Notes under the pieces: model-generated
Database searches by the model: none
Seen by the model: only the letters and a program-made list of their open reading frames with translations
Told to the model about the DNA's origin: nothing
Program-made: the position numbers and the translations under genes
DNA from: Lysobacter sp. cf310
GTDB taxonomy: Bacteria; Pseudomonadota; Gammaproteobacteria; Xanthomonadales; Xanthomonadaceae
Direction of reading: 5' to 3'
Assembly: GCF_900114355.1 (NCBI RefSeq)
Contig: NZ_FOSS01000003.1
Location: 140,250 to 181,699 of the forward strand
DNA length: 41,450 nt
Shown here: piece after piece, positions 8,462-17,753 of the stretch
Position numbering within the stretch: the first letter of the stretch is position 1
Layout of the letters: each line of letters opens with the position of its first letter

Positions 8462-9403
8462 ATGCTCGGCATCGGTTTCGTGCTGCCTTCGGGCTTTCAG
8501 ATCATGGGCCTGGCGGCTGCGTCGGCTTTCGAGCTGGCCAATGCCTGCGCCAAGCAGCGCCTGTACGACATCCGCCTGTACTCGGAGCGGGGCGGGGCGG
8601 TCGCCAATTCGCTGGGCATGAGCGTCGACACGCGCGCCTTGTCGCGGCAGAAGTTCGACACCCTGATCGTGTGCGGCCTGCTGAACCCGGAGCCGACCAG
8701 CCCGGAGCTGATCAAAGCCTTGCGTCGCGCCGCGGGCAACGCGCGACGCACCGCGTCGGTGTGCACCGGCACCTTCCTCCTCGGCGAAGCCGGGCTGCTG
8801 GAGGGCAAGCGCGTGACCACGCACTGGTTCCACGCGCGCGAGCTGCAGCGACGATTCCCGGACGTGCACCTGGAGGAAGACCGCATCTTCATCATCGACG
8901 GGGCGATCTGGACCTCGGCGGGCATGAGCGCGGGCATCGACCTGGCGCTGGGCATGATCGAGAAGGACTTCGGCGCCGAACTCACGCGCCAGGTCGCGCA
9001 GAAACTGGTGGTCTACCACCGTCGCGCGGGTGGCCAATCCCAACATTCGGCGTTGCTGGAGATGGACGCCAAGTCCGACCGCATCCAGACCGCGCTGGCC
9101 TACGCACGCCGCAATCTGCGTGCGCCGCTGTCGGTGGAGGAACTGGCCGAGGCCGCGCATCTGAGCCCGCGCCAGTTCAGCCGCGCCTTCCGCGCCGAGA
9201 CCGGGCAGTCGCCGGCCAAGGCGGTGGAAAACCTGCGCGTGGAGGCGGCGCGGGTGATGATCGAACAGAGCCGGCACAGCATCGACGAGGTCGCCGTGGA
9301 AACCGGCTTCGTCGATCCCGAGCGCATGCGCCGGGCGTTCCTGCGCGCCTTCGGCCAGCCGCCGCAGGCATTGCGCCGCAACGCGCGCCTGGCCGCCGCC
9401 TGA
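8462..9403 (+). CDS. GlxA-family transcriptional regulator (DJ-1/PfpI-like domain plus AraC DNA-binding domain)
   Basis: The 313-residue protein has an N-terminal class I glutamine amidotransferase-like (DJ-1/PfpI) domain, about residues 1-180. It contains the nucleophile-elbow sequence SVCTGTFLLGEAGLL and the TTHW motif, and in this family senses a ligand rather than acting as an enzyme. The C-terminal AraC domain (about 205-310) has two helix-turn-helix motifs (SVEELAEAAHLSPRQFSRAF and SIDEVAVETGFVDPERMRRAF). The start at 8462 leaves a short leader overlapping operator site 1, which suggests autoregulation. The neighbouring operator copies make the dehydrogenase and nitrilase genes its likely targets. 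The ligand is unknown; a nitrile or derived amide or acid is a guess from context. Confidence 0.9.
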   Translation: MLGIGFVLPSGFQIMGLAAASAFELANACAKQRLYDIRLYSERGGAVANSLGMSVDTRALSRQKFDTLIVCGLLNPEPTSPELIKALRRAAGNARRTASVCTGTFLLGEAGLLEGKRVTTHWFHARELQRRFPDVHLEEDRIFIIDGAIWTSAGMSAGIDLALGMIEKDFGAELTRQVAQKLVVYHRRAGGQSQHSALLEMDAKSDRIQTALAYARRNLRAPLSVEELAEAAHLSPRQFSRAFRAETGQSPAKAVENLRVEAARVMIEQSRHSIDEVAVETGFVDPERMRRAFLRAFGQPPQALRRNARLAAA

Positions 9404-9461
9404 GCCGCGCGATCGCGCTATTCAGAACCGCGTAGCCGCCGCGTTCGCAGGCGCGGCGTAG

Positions 9462-9488
9462 GATGCGGTGAGCCGGGCGAACCGCATC
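9462..9488 (+). terminator. Hairpin downstream of the GlxA-type gene, possibly a dispersed repeat
   Basis: GATGCGGT and ACCGCATC pair perfectly around an 11-base loop. GATGCGGTGAGC...GAACCGCATC also resembles a short repeat often found between genes in gammaproteobacteria. It could end the regulator transcript before the nitrilase promoter. There is no T-run. Confidence 0.5.
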
Positions 9489-9590
9489 GGCGCGAGGACG
9501 CCGCCGATAGCGAAGCGGGTCGCCGACGCGGCGACGATGAACAGGGAAGGCCTGCGGGTGTCCGAGTACGCCGGCGCAAGCCAGGACAAT

Positions 9591-9631
9591 CGTATGTCCT
9601 AAAACGAGGTTAGTTAGACATTTACGCCATG
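9591..9631 (+). promoter_or_regulatory. Putative GlxA/AraC operator, site 2, upstream of the nitrilase gene
   Basis: This copy matches site 1 (8411-8452, reverse strand) at 35 of 41 positions, including CCTAAAACGAGGTT and GACATTTACGCCA. The half-sites start 21 bases apart. It ends 70 bases before the nitrilase ATG and faces it as site 1 faces the dehydrogenase gene, consistent with activation of both genes by one regulator. Confidence 0.78.
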
Positions 9632-9700
9632 GAGTGCGGAGCCTAAGTTTTGCCCCGTACCGGCATCCCGCCGGACGCGTCCAAACCCCAGGAGTCCGTC

Positions 9701-10681
9701 ATGAGCACCGTCAAAGCCGCCGCCGTCCAGATCAGTCCCGTGCTGTACAGCCGCGCCGGCACCGTCGAAAAAGTCGTCAACAAGATCCGCGAGCTCGGCG
9801 CCAAAGGCGTGCAGTTCGCGACCTTCCCCGAAACCCTGATCCCGTACTACCCCTACTTCTCCTTCGTGCAGGCGCCCTACCAGATGGGCAAGGAGCATCA
9901 GCGCCTGCTCAACGAAGCCGTGACCGTGCCGTCGGCGGAAACCGACGCGATCGGCGCGGCCGCACGCGAAGCCAACATGGTGGTCTCGATCGGCGTCAAC
10001 GAACGCGATGGGCATTCGCTCTACAACACCCAACTGCTGTTCGACGCCGACGGCAGGCTGATCCAGCGCCGCCGCAAGCTCACCCCGACCTATCACGAGC
10101 GCATGGTCTGGGGGCAGGGCGATGCCTCGGGCCTGCGCGCCGTCGACAGCGCGGTCGGTCGCATCGGCCAGCTCGCGTGCTGGGAGCACTATCTGCCGCT
10201 GGCGCGCTACGCCCTGATCGCCGACGGCGAGCAGATCCATTCGGCCATGTACCCCGGCTCCTTCGCCGGCCCGCTGTTCGCCGAGCAGACCGAGATCAAC
10301 GTGCGCCAGCACGCGCTGGAGTCGGCTTGTTTCGTCGTCGTGGCCACCGCCTGGCTGGATCCGGAGCAGCAGGCCCGGATCGCCGCCGACACCGGCGGCC
10401 CGATCGGTCCGATTTCCGGCGGTTGCTTCACCGCGATCATCGACCCCGACGGCCGCATTGTCGGCGAACCGCTGCGCAGCGGCGAGGGCGAGGTCATCGC
10501 CGATCTCGATCTCTCGCTGATCGAAGCGCGCAAGCGCCTGATGGATGCGCGCGGCCACTACAGCCGTCCCGAATTGCTGAGCCTGCGCATCGATCGCAGC
10601 CAGACCGCGTATGTCCACGACGTCGGTGCGCCCGGCGAAGGCCGCGCCGCCGAGTCCGCGAACGGCCCCACCCAGGTCTGA
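9701..10681 (+). CDS. Nitrilase (carbon-nitrogen hydrolase)
   Basis: This cytosolic enzyme should hydrolyse nitriles to carboxylic acids and ammonia. The 326-residue protein keeps the full triad: Glu44 in [12 protein letters not shown], Lys126 in [19 protein letters not shown] (with the second conserved Glu133), and Cys160 in [12 protein letters not shown]. The [11 protein letters not shown] form is that of true nitrilases rather than amidases. ATG at 9701 has CAGGAG six bases upstream; the frame is open 17 codons further upstream, but without family-like sequence. It is a single-gene unit behind operator site 2 and should be expressed together with the broken dehydrogenase gene. The substrate (aliphatic or aromatic) cannot be read from the sequence. 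Confidence 0.93.
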
Positions 10682-11829: not shown

Positions 11830-12300
11830 ATGTCCCACAACACCCCGCGTAACACCGGCGTCGGCATGCTCGGCATCGCGCTGGCCGGCCTGGTCCTCAG
11901 CGGCTCGGCCTTCGCCATGCAGCCGCTCGCCCAGGGCTACATGCTCGCCGCCGGCCATGCCGCCGCGGAAGGCAAGTGCGGCGAAGGCAAGTGCGGCGCC
12001 AACGAAAGCAAGCCGGCCAAGGCCAAGAGCGGCGCGGCCAAGAAGACCGCCGAGGGCAAGTGCGGCGAAGGCCAGTGCGGCGACGCCCGCTTCGCCGCCA
12101 CCGATACCGACGACGACGCACGGGTCTCGCGCGCCGAGTTCCTGGCGGTAGTCCCGAAGGGCGAAGCCGCCTTCAAGAGCAAGGACAGCAACGGCGACGG
12201 CTACATCTCCGAGCACGAGGCGTACTACAGCGTGAAAGCCGCGTTCAACGCCAACGGCAAGGAAATCCCGCGCGGCCTGTTCTCCGGCATCACCGAGTAA
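11830..12300 (+). CDS. EGKCG-repeat RiPP metallophore precursor (bufferin/HvfA-like) with C-terminal EF-hands
   Basis: The 156-residue protein has an N-terminal signal-like segment ([18 protein letters not shown], cut probably after Ala29). A short core then carries its only four cysteines, all in the same motif: EGKCG at 47-51, 52-56 and 75-79, and EGQCG at 80-84, in two pairs separated by a Lys/Ala linker. In related systems the neighbouring DUF692 enzyme converts such cysteines to sulfur heterocycles that bind copper. The C-terminal half has two EF-hand loops: [12 protein letters not shown] (92-103, Ala at the usual Gly) and [12 protein letters not shown] (119-130, canonical). The Cys motifs are encoded by 15-base tandem repeats (11968-11997, 12052-12081). 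GGAG stands before the ATG. Metal-binding and export are inferred. Confidence 0.88.
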
Positions 12301-12313
12301 ACCTGCACCGTCC

Positions 12314-12341
12314 GCGCCCCCACGAGCCTTCGTGGGGGCGC
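12314..12341 (+). terminator. Strong hairpin between precursor and modifying-enzyme genes
   Basis: A perfect 12-bp GC-rich stem (GCGCCCCCACGA / TCGTGGGGGCGC) with a GCCT loop starts 13 bases after the precursor stop. It has no T-run. It probably acts as a partial terminator or 3' stabiliser, keeping precursor mRNA in excess over the downstream enzymes. Confidence 0.7.
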
Positions 12342-12359: not shown

Positions 12360-13217
12360 ATGCGCACGACACACTCCGCTACATCCGCCGGCCTGGGCCT
12401 GCGTCGCGGCCTGCTGCAAGACCTGTTGAGCATGCCCGACGGCGCCGTGGACTTCCTGGAGGTCGCACCCGACAACTGGATCGGCGTGGGCGGCCAGTTC
12501 GGCGCGGCGCTGGAGCGGCTGTCGGCGCGCTTCCCGATCAGCGCCCACGGCCTGTCGCTGTCGCTGGGCGGCACCGAGCCGCTGGACATGGAGCTGCTGC
12601 GCCGCACCCGCGAATTCAACGATCGCCATCAGGTGATGCTCTACAGCGAACACCTGAGCTACACCTCCGACGACGGTCAGCTCTACGACCTCATGCCGAT
12701 TCCGTTCACCGACGAGGCCATCCGCCACGTCGCCGGGCGCATTCGCCAGGTGCAGGACGTGCTGGGCCGGCGCATCGCGGTGGAGAACGTGTCCTACTAC
12801 GCCGCGCCGTATCAGGCGCTGGCCGAGATCGACTTCATCAACGCTGTCCTGGGGGAGGCCGACACCGACCTGCTGCTGGACGTCAACAACCTCTACGTCA
12901 ATTCGATCAATCACGGCTACGACGCCGAGGCCTTCCTCGCGCGTCTGCCCGGCGAGCGTATCGCCTCCTGCCACATCGCCGGCCACTACGACGAGGACAT
13001 CGACCTGAAAGTCGATACCCACGGCGCGCCGGTCAAGGCCGATGTGTGGTCGCTGCTGGCCAGCGCCTATCGCCGTTTCGGCGTGCGTCCGACCCTGCTG
13101 GAACGCGACTTCAACTTCCCACCGCTGCCCGAGCTGTTGGCCGAGACCGAGCGCATCCGCTCGATGCAGCTGGCCTACGCCGACCGTCAGCGCTTGCTGG
13201 AGCAGGTCCATGCCTGA
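12360..13217 (+). CDS. DUF692 multinuclear iron oxidase (MNIO), RiPP-modifying enzyme (BufB/HvfB-like)
   Basis: Enzymes of this family use a cluster of iron ions and oxygen to oxidise cysteine residues of a partner peptide. The 285-residue protein has the expected TIM-barrel pattern and metal ligands: [61 protein letters not shown] and [13 protein letters not shown]. The ATG at 12360 follows the intergenic hairpin; a longer open frame upstream is only read-through of the preceding gene. It overlaps the DUF2063 gene by eight bases, so the two are translationally coupled. The substrate is inferred to be the EGKCG precursor next door. Confidence 0.95.
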
Positions 13218-13977
13218 TCGCCTGCGCGAGCAACAGTTCACCCTGGCGCGCCACCTGCGCGACCCGTCCACCCATGCGCCGCCGCCCGGCCTGGAGGACC
13301 GCCGCCTGCGCGTCTATCGCGAGCTGTTCTTCAACAACCTCGAGGGCCTGCTGGCCAACGGTTTCCCTGTGATCGCCGAAACCCTGGGCGCGACGCGCTG
13401 GACCGCGCTGGTGCGCGCCTTCTACGCCGAGCACCGCGCGCAGACCCCGCTGTTCGCGCGCATCGCCGCCGAGTTCGTCGCCTACCTCGAACAACGCGCC
13501 GACGCTACCGAACGGCCGCCCTGGCTGCCCGAACTGGCGCACTACGAATGGGTGGAGCAGGCGCTGTTCGTCAGCGACGCGCAGGCGCCCGCGCACGATG
13601 CCGACGGCGATCTGCTCGATGGCGTGCCGCTGCTGTCGCCGCTGGCGCTGCCCTTGGCCTATCGCTGGCCGGTGACCGAGCTCGGCCCGTCGTTCCAGCC
13701 CGAGCGGCCGCCCGCGGAAGCGACGACCTTGCTGGTGCATCGCGATGCCGACCATCGCGTCCATTTCGCCCGGATCGCGCCGCTCGCGTATCGCCTGCTG
13801 AGCGCGCTGCAAGGCCAGCCGCGAACCGGCCGCGCGCACCTGGCCGCGCTGGCGGCGGAGGCGGGCGGCGACGCCGCCGGGTTCGTGGCGCAAGGCTTGG
13901 CGCTGTTGCAACAACTGCATGCGCAGGGCGTGGTCCTGGGCACTCTCAACTCGATGGAGCAAGACGATGAGCACTAA
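13210..13977 (+). CDS. DUF2063 protein, MNIO partner (BufC/HvfC-like)
   Basis: The 255-residue protein begins with [14 protein letters not shown] and has [27 protein letters not shown], the typical start of the DUF2063 putative DNA-binding/RiPP-recognition domain. A second, beta-rich half follows, seen in two-domain members. DUF2063 proteins accompany DUF692 enzymes and are thought to bind the precursor and hand it to the enzyme. The ATG at 13210 lies inside the end of the MNIO gene (eight-base overlap), and the stop overlaps the next gene by 11 bases. No cysteines or membrane segments stand out. Partner identification rests on family pairing and gene order. Confidence 0.92.
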
Positions 13978-14632
13978 GACCTCGCATCTCGGCGGATGGA
14001 AGCTGTTCTGGCTGATCGCGGCCGCGGTGCTGGCGATGTCGGCGTTGATCCTGGCCCTGAATCCGGACCCGGCCGAGGCCATGCGTTCGGTGATCCGGGC
14101 GACTGCGCGCAGCTCGTTCGTCTTGTTCCTGGCCGCGTTCGTCGCCTCCTCGCTGGCGACCCTGGTGCCCAACGACTTCACCCGTGGCCTGGTGCGCGAA
14201 CGCCGCTACATCGGCCTGTCGTTCGCGTTCTCGCACCTGGTCCACCTGGGCGCGATCTTCAGCTACGGCGTGTTGAACCCGCAGTTCTGGCCCAGCCGCA
14301 GCGCGCTGACCAATCTGCCGGGCACGGTGGGCTATGTGTTCATCGCCTTGCTCGCGGTCACGTCTTTCCACGCCATCTCCAAGCGCTTGAGCGCGACGTC
14401 ATGGAAGCGCCTGCACACCGTCGGCATGTGGACGATCGCGCTGATCTTCGGCCTGTCCTTCTTCAAGCGCATTCCCACCATGGGCGTGGTCTACGCGATT
14501 CCCTTCGCCATCCTCTGCGCCGCCGTCGCCGTCCGTCTGGTCGGCAAGTGGGCGCAGGCGAACAAGCGCCAGCTGGCGCGCACCCGCAGCAACCCGCAAC
14601 ACACCTCCCCCCAAGCACTGGAGTCACCGTAA
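13967..14632 (+). CDS. Ferric-reductase-like transmembrane protein
   Basis: The 221-residue protein has about six hydrophobic helices (first near 14-31) and paired histidines at positions able to hold heme: His90 and His93 (FSHLVHL), His135 (SFHAISK) and His150 (RLHTVGMW). This resembles the heme b membrane domain of ferric reductases and of MsrQ/YedZ, without any attached flavin or NAD domain. It would pass electrons across the inner membrane. The ATG at 13967 overlaps the DUF2063 gene, and its TAA shares bases with the ATG of the next gene. Within this operon it may supply or remove electrons for metal handling or peptide maturation; that is an inference. Confidence 0.78.
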   Translation: MSTKTSHLGGWKLFWLIAAAVLAMSALILALNPDPAEAMRSVIRATARSSFVLFLAAFVASSLATLVPNDFTRGLVRERRYIGLSFAFSHLVHLGAIFSYGVLNPQFWPSRSALTNLPGTVGYVFIALLAVTSFHAISKRLSATSWKRLHTVGMWTIALIFGLSFFKRIPTMGVVYAIPFAILCAAVAVRLVGKWAQANKRQLARTRSNPQHTSPQALESP

Positions 14633-15054
14633 TGAGCAGCACCCTCGAAACCGTTATCTACACCGCGCACACCCACGTCACCGGCGGCCGCATCGGCAGC
14701 GGCACGTCCAGCGATGGCGCGATCGATGTCCAGCTGAGCTCGCCCGGCTCGGGCCGCCCCGGCACCAACCCGGAGCAGCTGTTCGGCATCGGCTACTCGG
14801 CCTGCTTCATCGGCGCCCTGCAGTTCGCCGCGGCCGCGCGCAAGATCAAGCTGCCGGCAGACGCCTCGGTCGATGCCGATGTGGCCTTGGGCCAGATCGC
14901 CAGCGGCGAGTATCAGTTGGCGGTGACTTTGAACGTCAACCTGCCCGGGCTGGACGAGGACCTGAAGCGCGAACTGGTCGCCGCCGCCCACCAGACCTGC
15001 CCGTATTCGCGCATGACGCGCGGCAACGTGAACGTCGAACTCGCGATCGGCTGA
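14632..15054 (+). CDS. Organic hydroperoxide resistance protein (Ohr/OsmC family)
   Basis: Ohr enzymes are cytosolic thiol peroxidases that reduce organic hydroperoxides, using lipoyl groups as reductant. The 140-residue protein has the usual length and both catalytic cysteines: Cys58 in GIGYSACFIGAL and resolving Cys123 in HQTCPYSRMTRGN. It also has TNPEQLF and the conserved Arg near the N-terminus (GGRIG). The start codon overlaps the preceding stop, so it is tightly coupled to the ferric-reductase-like gene. Its presence in a copper-peptide operon suggests protection against copper-driven peroxide chemistry. No separate OhrR gene is nearby. Confidence 0.94.
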   Translation: MSSTLETVIYTAHTHVTGGRIGSGTSSDGAIDVQLSSPGSGRPGTNPEQLFGIGYSACFIGALQFAAAARKIKLPADASVDADVALGQIASGEYQLAVTLNVNLPGLDEDLKRELVAAAHQTCPYSRMTRGNVNVELAIG

Positions 15055-15093: not shown

Positions 15094-15615
15094 ATGTGGA
15101 AGGCCATCATCGTAGCTCTCAGTCTGAGCCTCGCCGGCGCGGCGTGTTCGCCCGGCGCCAACGCCAGCCAGGCGCCGCCGGTGCAGGCCCCGGAATTCGC
15201 CGGCATCGAACGCTGGTTCAACAGCCCGCCGCTGAGCATGAGCGGGCTGAAGGGCAGGGTGGTGCTGGTGGAGTTCTGGACCTACACCTGCATCAACTGC
15301 ATCCACGTGCTGCCGCACGTGCAGCAGTGGCACCAGCGCTATCGCGACCAGGGATTGGTGGTGGTCGGCGTGCACACCCCCGAGTACGAGGAGGAGCATG
15401 CCGCCGCCGGCGTGCAGGCCGCGATCCAGCGCCACGGCATCGGCTACCCGGTGGCGCAGGACAACCGCTACGATACCTGGAACGCCTACGGCAACCGCTT
15501 CTGGCCGGCGCTGTACCTGATCGACCGCGATGGCAGGGTCGTGTATCGCCACTACGGCGAAGGCGGCTACGAGACCACCGAGGCGCAGATCCGGCAGCTG
15601 CTGGCGCAGCGCTGA
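15094..15615 (+). CDS. Exported thioredoxin-like (TlpA/AhpC-TSA type) protein with CINC active site
   Basis: The 173-residue protein starts with a signal sequence (MWKAIIVALSLSLAGAACSPG). Cys18 might be lipidated, though the lipobox is imperfect. The thioredoxin fold follows, with WTYTCINCIHVLPHVQQW giving redox cysteines 66 and 69. It also has VVVGVHTPEYEEE and RFWPALYLIDRDGRVVY, seen in the periplasmic domain of DipZ-type proteins. It is likely a periplasmic thiol-disulfide protein. It follows the ohr gene by 39 bases in the same direction. A role in keeping the peptide's or metal-bound thiols reduced is plausible but inferred. Confidence 0.86.
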   Translation: MWKAIIVALSLSLAGAACSPGANASQAPPVQAPEFAGIERWFNSPPLSMSGLKGRVVLVEFWTYTCINCIHVLPHVQQWHQRYRDQGLVVVGVHTPEYEEEHAAAGVQAAIQRHGIGYPVAQDNRYDTWNAYGNRFWPALYLIDRDGRVVYRHYGEGGYETTEAQIRQLLAQR

Positions 15616-15696: not shown

Positions 15697-16437
15697 ATGG
15701 AACACGTAGATCACATCCTGGTCGTCGACGACGACCGCGAGATCCGCCAGATGGTCGCCGACTATCTGCAGAAGAACGGCCTGCGCGCGACCGCCGTCGC
15801 CGACGGCCGCGAAATGCGCGCGGTGCTGGACACGCATGCCGTGGACCTGGTGGTGCTGGATCTGATGATGCCGGGCGAGGACGGCCTGACCCTGGCGCGC
15901 AACCTGCGCGCAGGCAAGCACCGCGCAGTGCCGATCGTGATGCTGACCGCCCGCGACGACCAGACCGACCGCATCGTCGGCCTGGAGATGGGCGCCGACG
16001 ACTACGTGACCAAGCCGTTCGCCGCGCGCGAGCTGCTGGCGCGGATCAAGGCCGTGATCCGGCGCACGCGCATGCTGCCTCCCAACCTGCAGGTCAGTCA
16101 GGCCAGTCATGTGCTGGCGTTCGGGCGCTGGCGCCTGGACACCACCGCGCGCCACCTGCTCGATCCGGACGGCACCGTGGTGGCCCTGAGCGGCGCCGAA
16201 TTCCGTCTGCTGCGCGTGTTTCTCGACCACGCCAACCGCGTGCTCAGCCGCGACCAGCTGCTCAGCCTCACCCAAGGCCGCGATGCCGAACCGTTCGACC
16301 GCTCCATCGACCTGATGGTCAGTCGCCTGCGTCAGCGTTTGCAGGACGACGCGCGCGAGCAGAGCTATATCAAGACCGTGCGCAGCGAAGGCTACGTGTT
16401 CAGCATGGCCGTGACCTTGGTCGGTGACGAGGCATGA
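15697..16437 (+). CDS. OmpR-family response regulator
   Basis: The 246-residue protein has a receiver domain (about 6-120) with acidic pocket Asp11-Asp13, phospho-acceptor Asp55 (VLDLMMP), Thr84 and Lys106 (TKPF). A winged-helix DNA-binding domain follows (about 140-238, with LSGAEFRLLRVFLDH, LSRDQLL, RSIDLMVSRLRQRL and IKTVRSEGYVF). Its stop overlaps the start of the kinase gene by four bases, a typical cognate pair. The direct TGTATC repeats upstream of the RiPP operon have the spacing used by this family, so it may control its own operon. The signal is unknown; copper or oxidative stress is likely from context. Confidence 0.95.
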   Translation: MEHVDHILVVDDDREIRQMVADYLQKNGLRATAVADGREMRAVLDTHAVDLVVLDLMMPGEDGLTLARNLRAGKHRAVPIVMLTARDDQTDRIVGLEMGADDYVTKPFAARELLARIKAVIRRTRMLPPNLQVSQASHVLAFGRWRLDTTARHLLDPDGTVVALSGAEFRLLRVFLDHANRVLSRDQLLSLTQGRDAEPFDRSIDLMVSRLRQRLQDDAREQSYIKTVRSEGYVFSMAVTLVGDEA

Positions 16438-17753
16438 CGCCGTCGCGCACGTCGCGCTGGTTGCCCAGGACCATCGCCTCGCGCTTGTATCTGATCCTGT
16501 TCACGGGGCTGCTGATCGCGCATGGTTTGTCTTTCGGCCTGCTGTTCTACGAGCGCTACGAAGCCGCGTCCTCGATGCTGATGAGCAATCTGGAGCAGGA
16601 CGCGGTGGTGGCGGTCAAATTGCTGGACCGTTTGCCCGCGCAGGAACGCGCGCATTGGTTGCCGCAACTGCGGCGACGCACCTTCCATTACCAACTCGGC
16701 CCCGGCCAGGCCGGCGGCCCGCTGATCGGCGACACCGCGCAGGAGATGAGCCGACGCGTCGGCACAGTGCTGGGCCCGCGTTACCCGATCGTCGCCAACA
16801 GCGTGTCCGCCGAGCCCGAGCGCTTCCAGATCCACCTGCGCCTCAGCGACGGCTCGCCCATGTACATCGAAGTGCAGCCGTCGATGATGCCGTTGGCCAA
16901 GTGGCTGCCGTACGTGCTGTTCGCGCAGCTGGGCCTGTTGCTGCTATGCACCTGGGCCGCGGTGCGCCTGGCGACGCGACCACTGGAGCGCCTGGCCAAT
17001 GCTGCCCAGACTCTGAGTCCGGGCGGCGACGGCGAGCGCCTGCGGGAAGGCGGCCCCACCGAGGTCGCCAAGGCGGTTGCGGCCTTCAACGCCATGCAGG
17101 ACCGCATCGCCGAGTACACCCAGGAGCGCCTGCAGATACTCGCCTCGATCTCGCACGACCTGCAGACCCCTATCACGCGCATGCACCTGCGCGCCGAGGC
17201 CATGGACGAGTCGCCCGAGCGCGAGAAGATGATCGAGGACCTGCGCCAGATGCAGCATCTGGTACGCGAGGGCATCGCCTATGCGCGCAGCGCGCACGGC
17301 GGCGCGGAAGCGTCGGTGCGCATCGACCTCAACGCCTTCCTCGACAGCCTGGTGTACGACTATCAGGACATCGGCAAGTCGGTCGCCTACACCGGCCGCG
17401 TCGATGCGCCGCTGACCACGCGCCCGCAAGCGCTGCGCCGCGTGCTGGCCAACCTGCTCGACAACGCCCTCAATTACGCCGGCGCGGCGGAGCTGGACGT
17501 CGGCCGCGAAACCGACGGCGCGGTGCGGATCAGCGTACGCGACCGCGGCCCCGGCATCCCCGAAGCCGAACTGGACAAGGTGCTGCAACCGTTCTATCGC
17601 CTGGAAGGTTCGCGCAACCGCGACACCGGCGGCACCGGACTGGGCCTGGCGATAGCGCAGCAGCTGGCCCGATCGATCGGCGCCGCATTGAGCTTGCGCA
17701 ATCGCGAAGGCGGTGGATTGGAAGCGGTGGTGCTGCTGCGCGGCGAAAACTAA
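16434..17753 (+). CDS. Sensor histidine kinase
   Basis: The 439-residue kinase has two transmembrane helices (about 15-40 and 160-182) that flank a periplasmic domain of about 120 residues. A HAMP-like linker follows (ATRPLERLANAA). The H-box SHDLQTPITRMHL contains phospho-acceptor His241, followed by N-box LANLLDNALNYA, G1 DRGPGIP and G2 GTGLGLAIAQQL, all intact. The periplasmic part has few His or Met residues, so it does not look like a CusS-type copper sensor. It forms a pair with the overlapping OmpR-type gene and ends the operon. Confidence 0.95.
   Translation: MTPSRTSRWLPRTIASRLYLILFTGLLIAHGLSFGLLFYERYEAASSMLMSNLEQDAVVAVKLLDRLPAQERAHWLPQLRRRTFHYQLGPGQAGGPLIGDTAQEMSRRVGTVLGPRYPIVANSVSAEPERFQIHLRLSDGSPMYIEVQPSMMPLAKWLPYVLFAQLGLLLLCTWAAVRLATRPLERLANAAQTLSPGGDGERLREGGPTEVAKAVAAFNAMQDRIAEYTQERLQILASISHDLQTPITRMHLRAEAMDESPEREKMIEDLRQMQHLVREGIAYARSAHGGAEASVRIDLNAFLDSLVYDYQDIGKSVAYTGRVDAPLTTRPQALRRVLANLLDNALNYAGAAELDVGRETDGAVRISVRDRGPGIPEAELDKVLQPFYRLEGSRNRDTGGTGLGLAIAQQLARSIGAALSLRNREGGGLEAVVLLRGEN

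Follow-up and report, generated by a model that had tools for sequence, protein, structure and literature searches.

The window, the whole 41,450-nucleotide stretch of Lysobacter sp. cf310 DNA analyzed here, carries a gene for an EGKCG precursor with a C-terminal pair of EF-hands, followed by the gene for an HvfB-family MNIO (DUF692) maturase (Table 1). An MNIO at 12360-13217 had been proposed in an earlier note on this DNA, and the PF05114 and NF003818 scores bear the proposal out; by sequence, the best solved relative of the enzyme is 3bww. The DoxX/HvfX gene upstream and the HvfC/DUF2063 gene downstream, both absent from that note, complete the standard cluster, and HvfX, the precursor, HvfB, and HvfC all scored above curated NCBIfam cut-offs. 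The HvfC gene overlaps the MNIO gene by 8 nt. The ferric-reductase-like gene beyond it recurs near relatives; its ORF (13919-14629) matched PF01794 (30.6 bits; cut-off 28), and the MsrQ model NF003831 scored 38.4 bits on the protein, below its cut-off of 130. For each protein of the two-component pair, 25 NCBIfam models were listed and all fell below cut-off, with OmpR and EnvZ nearest, and a link between this pair and the precursor is a guess. Farther upstream (8462-10681) lie an AraC-type regulator, whose best models, FtrA and GbdR, were below cut-off, and a Nit6803-like nitrilase (482.5 bits; cut-off 502.6), both probably unrelated to the precursor cluster.

Table 1 Features of the precursor cluster, in window positions
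Feature	Position	Strand	Basis and remarks
DoxX/HvfX-family membrane protein, 224 aa	11071..11745	+	PF07681 77.6 bits (cut-off 23.6); NF050144 142.1 (cut-off 80)
EGKCG precursor with C-terminal EF-hand pair	11830..12300	+	156 aa; NF050137; four Cys, two EF loops
Hydrophobic N-terminal stretch, residues 9-29	11854..11916	+	Ends in signal-peptidase-like AFA; putative signal peptide or membrane anchor
First Cys doublet, residues 47-56 (Cys50, Cys55)	11968..11997	+	Motif match
Second Cys doublet, residues 75-84 (Cys78, Cys83)	12052..12081	+	Directly N-terminal of EF-pair; Cys83 9 residues before loop 1
EF-hand loop 1, residues 92-103	12103..12138	+	Pattern; conserved ligands; modeled EF-pair; no Pfam match
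EF-hand loop 2, residues 119-130	12184..12219	+	Pattern; Pfam matches below cut-off
12-bp hairpin, precursor-MNIO gap	12314..12341	+	RNA fold of 59-nt gap, -29.3 kcal/mol
HvfB-family MNIO (DUF692) maturase, 285 aa	12360..13217	+	NF003818 413.9 bits (cut-off 360); PF05114 337.3 (cut-off 25)
HvfC/DUF2063 partner, 255 aa	13210..13977	+	NF050145 299.4 bits (cut-off 142)
Ferric-reductase-like transmembrane protein (MsrQ-like)	13967..14632	+	Start inferred from ATG 13967
Ohr/OsmC-family peroxiredoxin	14632..15054	+	Start inferred from ATG 14632; TIGR03561 153.4 bits (cut-off 88.85)
TlpA/ResA-like thioredoxin-fold protein	15094..15615	+	PF00578 49.3 bits (cut-off 26)
OmpR-class response regulator (15697-16437) and histidine kinase (16434-17753)	15697..17753	+	Homologues near some relatives

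The only cysteines of the precursor are residues 50, 55, 78, and 83, and all four lie in EG[KQ]CG motifs (EGKCG starting at residues 47, 52, and 75 and EGQCG at 80), the two-pair arrangement that had been read from the sequence before. The two EF loops, also placed correctly in that reading, were recovered as exact matches to the EF-loop pattern. Chance is a poor account of these motifs, since among 200,000 shuffles of residues 29-156 only 2 contained two or more EF-loop patterns and only 1 contained two or more EG[KQ]CG motifs. The Cys part was confirmed by the curated model NF050137 (KCGExKCG_twice; 38.2 bits, cut-off 19.5). Identity as a strict HvfA equivalog was rejected (NF050188, 27.2 bits; cut-off 95). 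Hydropathy alone suggests a signal or membrane segment at the N terminus, with a Kyte-Doolittle peak of 2.32 at residues 13-24 among the 12-residue windows sampled.

On the precursor, all five listed EF-hand models of Pfam stayed below cut-off (best PF00036, 23.6 versus 25.4 bits; EF-hand_5, 18.6 versus 25.9), and their best stretches cover loop 2 and not loop 1. Position 6 of loop 1, usually Gly, is Ala in the precursor; among 42 C-terminal-form representatives, a query-biased set, it is Ala in 5 and Gly in 33. Loop 1 is backed by its ligands, which are conserved across relatives (D92, D96, S100, and E103 are invariant in 39/39 aligned rows), and by the structure model, in which short strands at 98-100 and 125-127 lie inside two helix-loop-helix units. 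In this model, made from 39 rows, residues 6-84 had pLDDT values below 50 and no confident structure, just a low-confidence helix at 34-41; block 81-90 averaged 58, and the blocks across 91-140 averaged 85 to 90. The first EF helix is modeled at 85-91 and begins two residues past Cys83. The EF-pair is predicted as a folded domain and the Cys region at low confidence.

Frequency and layouts of the EF-hand forms

Searches of 198 same-family genomes found the Cys model in 116, and a whole-protein search gave matches, many of them partial, in 149. Among 29 same-family loci fetched by Cys motif alone (L009-L037), 9 encode an EF-pair: 1 in the C-terminal form of the window protein and 8 in a sandwich form, with the EF-pair flanked by two EGKCG regions (as in L010, L022, L034, and, beyond these 29 loci, L119-L136 and others). 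A named scan, from which the best 80 of at least 327 confirmed loci were kept (at least 592 stretches matched), yielded 81 ORF rows from Lysobacter, Pseudomonas, Stenotrophomonas, Rheinheimera, Steroidobacter, and other genera, comprising 52 C-terminal, 20 sandwich, and 9 without an EF-pair. When the sets were merged, 147 loci gave 148 stop-terminated ORFs carrying two or more motifs, of which 133 were unique and 105 remained under 90% identity; this merged set is biased toward the query, draws in part on the best 80 of at least 327 named loci, and has ORF starts guessed by script. Among these 105 query-biased representatives, 42 have a C-terminal EF-pair and 30 a sandwich (72 with an EF-pair), 29 have no matched loop, and 4 with a single matched loop were left unclassed, although by eye some of these seem to contain another loop that departs from the pattern. 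One locus, from Lysobacter prati (L070), contains two C-terminal-form precursor ORFs.

The earlier note had not taken the fusion for the standard form of the family. With an EF-pair in 72 of 105 precursors (query-biased) and in 9 of 29 motif-fetched loci, that judgment fell, while the picture of an MNIO-associated EGKCG precursor with an EF-hand pair in a bufferin/oxazolin-type cluster stood. A rare or unreported fusion is ruled out by the same 72 of 105 together with the second precursor type described in the available part of PMC12452194; the fusion is common and already in print, and the observation itself is confirmed. The note had held that its proposal would fail if the EF-hand form proved common and already characterized. 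The form is common and described; its characterization as a modified peptide was not seen in the parts of the papers available.

The genome of the window also holds a second MNIO cluster (L001, C6:66787-70569), whose precursor is a plain 8-Cys EGKCG form without EF-hands; both precursor types are thus kept in one genome. An ORF upstream in that cluster resembles a sigma factor by eye.

Structured gaps between precursor and MNIO genes were commoner in EF-hand forms than in plain forms. With z-scores taken against mononucleotide shuffles, a hairpin with z below -2 occurred in 19/30 C-terminal, 12/22 sandwich, and 1/10 no-EF gaps of at least 25 nt (gaps in all: 30, 34, and 27, respectively). The hairpin in the window is a possible attenuator or RNA-processing site, and a hairpin between the genes could keep precursor expression above enzyme expression.

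Cysteine-to-loop spacing and MNIO association

The last Cys lies 9 residues before loop 1 in all 42 C-terminal representatives of the query-biased set, Cys83 of the window protein included. In the 30 sandwich representatives of the same biased set, the distance is 6 in 26, 9 in 3, and 18 in 1. The EF-pair is free of internal Cys in 42/42 C-terminal and 29/30 sandwich representatives (query-biased). The 17 C-terminal representatives with four motifs serve as an internal control: the inner doublet spacing is fixed at 5 and the inter-doublet gap takes 8 values from 13 to 23. The second-to-last-Cys span takes 24 values in the 42 C-terminal representatives, a figure that mixes motif number with gap length. 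Because 30 named members of the 42 (from the best 80 of at least 327) were fetched partly by the pattern CGEG[QK]CGD, the selection itself accounts for some of the conservation seen in the second doublet but not for its distance to loop 1.

The fixed Cys-loop distance and the modeled helix after Cys83 indicate that the second doublet abuts the EF domain with no variable linker, which suggests, without proving, that the two parts are coupled. Part of the fixed spacing is expected of any EF domain, since the distance includes the first EF helix, and shared descent and a fixed EF helix length are the main alternatives to coupling. The two halves could also be independent, with the EF-pair just anchoring the protein stably in the periplasm or keeping it soluble, and with calcium irrelevant to the Cys part. 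The model, with its unstructured residues 6-84, accords with independence, as do the 29 of 105 representatives (query-biased) with no matched EF loop, among them the precursor of the second cluster in the same genome. Independence is nonetheless unlikely given a constant Cys-loop spacing of 9 (mostly 6 in the sandwich form) against a variable inter-doublet gap, and given the co-segregation of MNIO clade with precursor layout described below. What the analysis shows is the operon, its motifs, a fixed Cys-loop distance, and a predicted border where the low-confidence part gives way to the folded one. Neither the sandwich layout nor the constant spacing is described in the available main text of PMC12452194, PMC12668002, PMC12538549, PMC11559002, PMC4053335, or PMC9132961, and the term EF-hand has a count of 0 in the available text of PMC12636315 and PMC13419390.

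Loop starts are 27 apart in 35 of the 42 C-terminal representatives (query-biased), 25 in 4, and 26 in 3. The 15 residues between the loops of the window protein approach the 12 to 13 of lanmodulin, compared with about 25 in usual EF proteins (PMC11845868, available part), and a closely spaced pair might bind lanthanides rather than calcium. Weak sequence matches to 8fns (E 0.045) and 6mi5 (E 0.067) point the same way, 6mi5 being labeled lanmodulin and 8fns being discussed among lanmodulin structures in the part of PMC11845868 available. In 2 of the 30 sandwich representatives (L019 and L063; query-biased), loop starts are 24 apart with 12 residues between, which is the lanmodulin spacing. Such binding is very improbable here: EfhP, an EF-hand protein of Pseudomonas aeruginosa (PA4107) with the same 27-residue loop-start spacing, binds Ca2+ with a Kd near 13 uM (PMC4053335 and PMC9132961, as far as available), and neither window loop has Pro at position 2. 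Membership in the lanmodulin family is ruled out by the NF053806 score (18.3 bits; cut-off 135), despite the short loop spacing.

Association with MNIO was followed across relatives on a quick tree of 94 MNIO rows, 93 of them different, with 34 of 90 inner branches open. Layout labels required 9 changes on this tree versus a shuffled mean of 44.7, and none of 200 shuffles was as low. The C-terminal form (33 rows, which take in both the window and its duplicate, L038) required 2 changes versus a mean of 27.3, with none of 500 shuffles as low. The MNIO clade co-segregates with precursor layout.

In the named set (best 80 of at least 327), an MNIO is absent from the flanking sequence fetched (at most 4 kb) for 32 of 51 C-terminal loci, and modification is therefore not tied to the operon. 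These stand-alone genes are mostly from Pseudomonas (for example, L071-L073, L078-L085, L097-L100, and L102-L110). An MNIO was found elsewhere in the genome in 20 of 20 cases drawn from the 32, a result that is only mildly supportive because the base rate is already 63 of 79 genomes in a draw from the genus of one tested genome, three of the twenty included.

The neighborhood of C-terminal loci bears on a reading in which the protein is mainly a calcium sensor like EfhP, the Cys region senses metal (iron has been suggested) or redox state, and the MNIO only prepares that site. Genes of redox type (ferric-reductase-like, Ohr/OsmC, or TlpA) are neighbors of 13 of 19 C-terminal loci with MNIO versus 1 of 27 other MNIO loci in the named set, the best 80 of at least 327 (Fisher P = 3.1e-6, with relatedness ignored). 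As far as the available text goes, EfhP binds Ca2+ (Kd 13.7 uM; N 1.8 after decalcification), binds neither Mg2+ nor Sr2+, and undergoes a Ca2+-dependent structural change (PMC9132961), and its authors have raised the idea that the EGKCG repeats make it a sensor of both Ca2+ and Fe (PMC11559002). On the other side, the EGKCG peptides studied carry 5-thiooxazole and one of these peptides bound copper (PMC12668002, available part), no sensor partner is evident in the window, and the two-component pair is unspecific to any known signal. We consider a mainly sensory role improbable.

A possible order of modification, export, and folding

Free calcium is scarce in the cytoplasm but not in the periplasm, and Sec requires an unfolded protein. 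Since the Kd of EfhP is about 13 uM, an EF-pair of this kind would be expected to fold only after export from the calcium-poor cytoplasm, and the EfhP Kd, the calcium distribution, and the Sec requirement together favor modification first and folding second. In the cytoplasm, the whole precursor would be loose, and the MNIO and HvfC would convert its four Cys to copper-binding 5-thiooxazoles. The loose, modified precursor would then be exported by Sec, and in the calcium-rich periplasm the EF-pair would take two Ca2+ and fold. The folded pair would hold the second thiooxazole doublet at the start of the first helix, with the first doublet on a flexible arm, and the mature product would bind copper or a related metal near the membrane. 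The order of cytoplasmic modification, export, and Ca2+ folding is put forward tentatively, at slightly less than even chances. Modification, export, and binding of copper are inferences, as is any effect that calcium may have on these steps.

The window protein has two double repeats, and the double repeat is the unit modified in the FonBC system, where, in the available part of PMC12668002, a double-repeat peptide lost 8 Da and a single repeat was unmodified. The peptides of this kind that have been studied carry 5-thiooxazole, and one of them bound copper when expressed with added copper; Pro was not tolerated, from which the authors suggest a need for flexibility or backbone contacts (same source, same limit). 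That the protein belongs to the published Buf_EGKC|EF-hand_5 precursors as one of the EfhP type, with the neighboring HvfB-family MNIO and HvfC as its maturation enzymes, is almost certain. The overall explanation, which joins this identity to modification, export, Ca2+ folding, and copper binding, is probable. Against it, EfhP work in the available part of PMC11559002 concerns calcium sensing and iron uptake and not copper, loop 1 departs from the usual Gly at position 6 and all Pfam EF-hand models listed score below cut-off, and plain EGKCG precursors (29 of 105 representatives, query-biased) manage without an EF-pair.

The EF-pair might further act as a calcium-operated folding switch for a copper-binding RiPP, unfolded for modification and export and Ca2+-folded afterward, and in this way set copper binding. 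Folding would fix a thiooxazole doublet 9 residues from loop 1 (6 in most sandwich forms), and the sandwich would be a second design of the same switch. We regard such a switch as doubtful. The constant Cys-loop spacing and the sandwich layout are a direct and testable reason to expect that the two metals interact. It is this dual-metal question, together with the spacing and the sandwich layout, that keeps the system of interest. In the available text of PMC12452194, PMC12668002, PMC9132961, PMC4053335, PMC11559002, and PMC12538549, no experiment was seen that tests an EF-hand form for modification, for copper binding, or for coupling to calcium.

Comparison with published systems

The available part of PMC12452194 (Microb Genom 2025) divides EGKCG precursors into two types, the second with two EF-hands C-terminal of a short EGKCG region that is predicted unstructured and placed after a transmembrane helix, and it cites EfhP to illustrate the roles that calcium may have. 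The window protein matches this Buf_EGKC|EF-hand_5 type in its EGKCG region and C-terminal EF-hands, its hydropathy suggests an N-terminal helix of the same kind, and both have MNIO, DUF2063, and DoxX neighbors; in the window, the MNIO and DUF2063 genes lie downstream of the precursor and DoxX lies nearby. The one difference found is the EF-hand_5 score, which is below cut-off in the window protein. The published example, WP_187711723.1, was compared by its published description, as far as available.

Lanmodulin resembles the window protein as an EF-hand protein with short inter-loop spacing and differs in having four EF-hands, at least one of which carries Pro at loop position 2 (PMC11845868, available part), against two loops with no such Pro in the window. 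HvfA/oxazolin and fontiphorin share EGKCG motifs and HvfB/HvfC-type enzymes with the window system. Those reported are repeat peptides, and the term EF-hand has a count of 0 in the available text of PMC12668002 (2025 preprint), whereas the window protein has an EF-pair. A precursor of that form, with 8 Cys and no EF-pair, is encoded separately in the second MNIO cluster of the same genome.

EfhP was compared by published features rather than by sequence alignment, from the available parts of its papers. It has four EGKCG repeats (PMC11559002, mBio 2024), a membrane segment, and loops at 88-99 and 115-126, with DUF692 and DUF2063 genes adjacent and apparently operonic (PMC4053335, PLoS One 2014). 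The window protein likewise has four EGKCG-type repeats, a putative N-terminal membrane segment, loop starts 27 apart, and adjoining DUF692 and DUF2063 genes, and the residues that would serve as Ca2+ ligands are in place. One window motif is EGQCG, and window loop 1 lacks the Gly6 that EfhP has in both loops. DoxX lies directly upstream in the window and has a term count of 0 in the available text of PMC4053335. The window protein thus stands between two bodies of work. In one, EfhP is treated as a calcium sensor; its calcium binding was measured on protein produced in E. coli, and no MNIO or other modification is mentioned in the available part of PMC9132961 (Sci Rep 2022). In the other, EGKCG peptides without EF-hands are treated as copper binders (PMC12668002, likewise in part). 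Should EfhP-type proteins carry the modification in vivo, the calcium measurements would have to be redone with modified protein.
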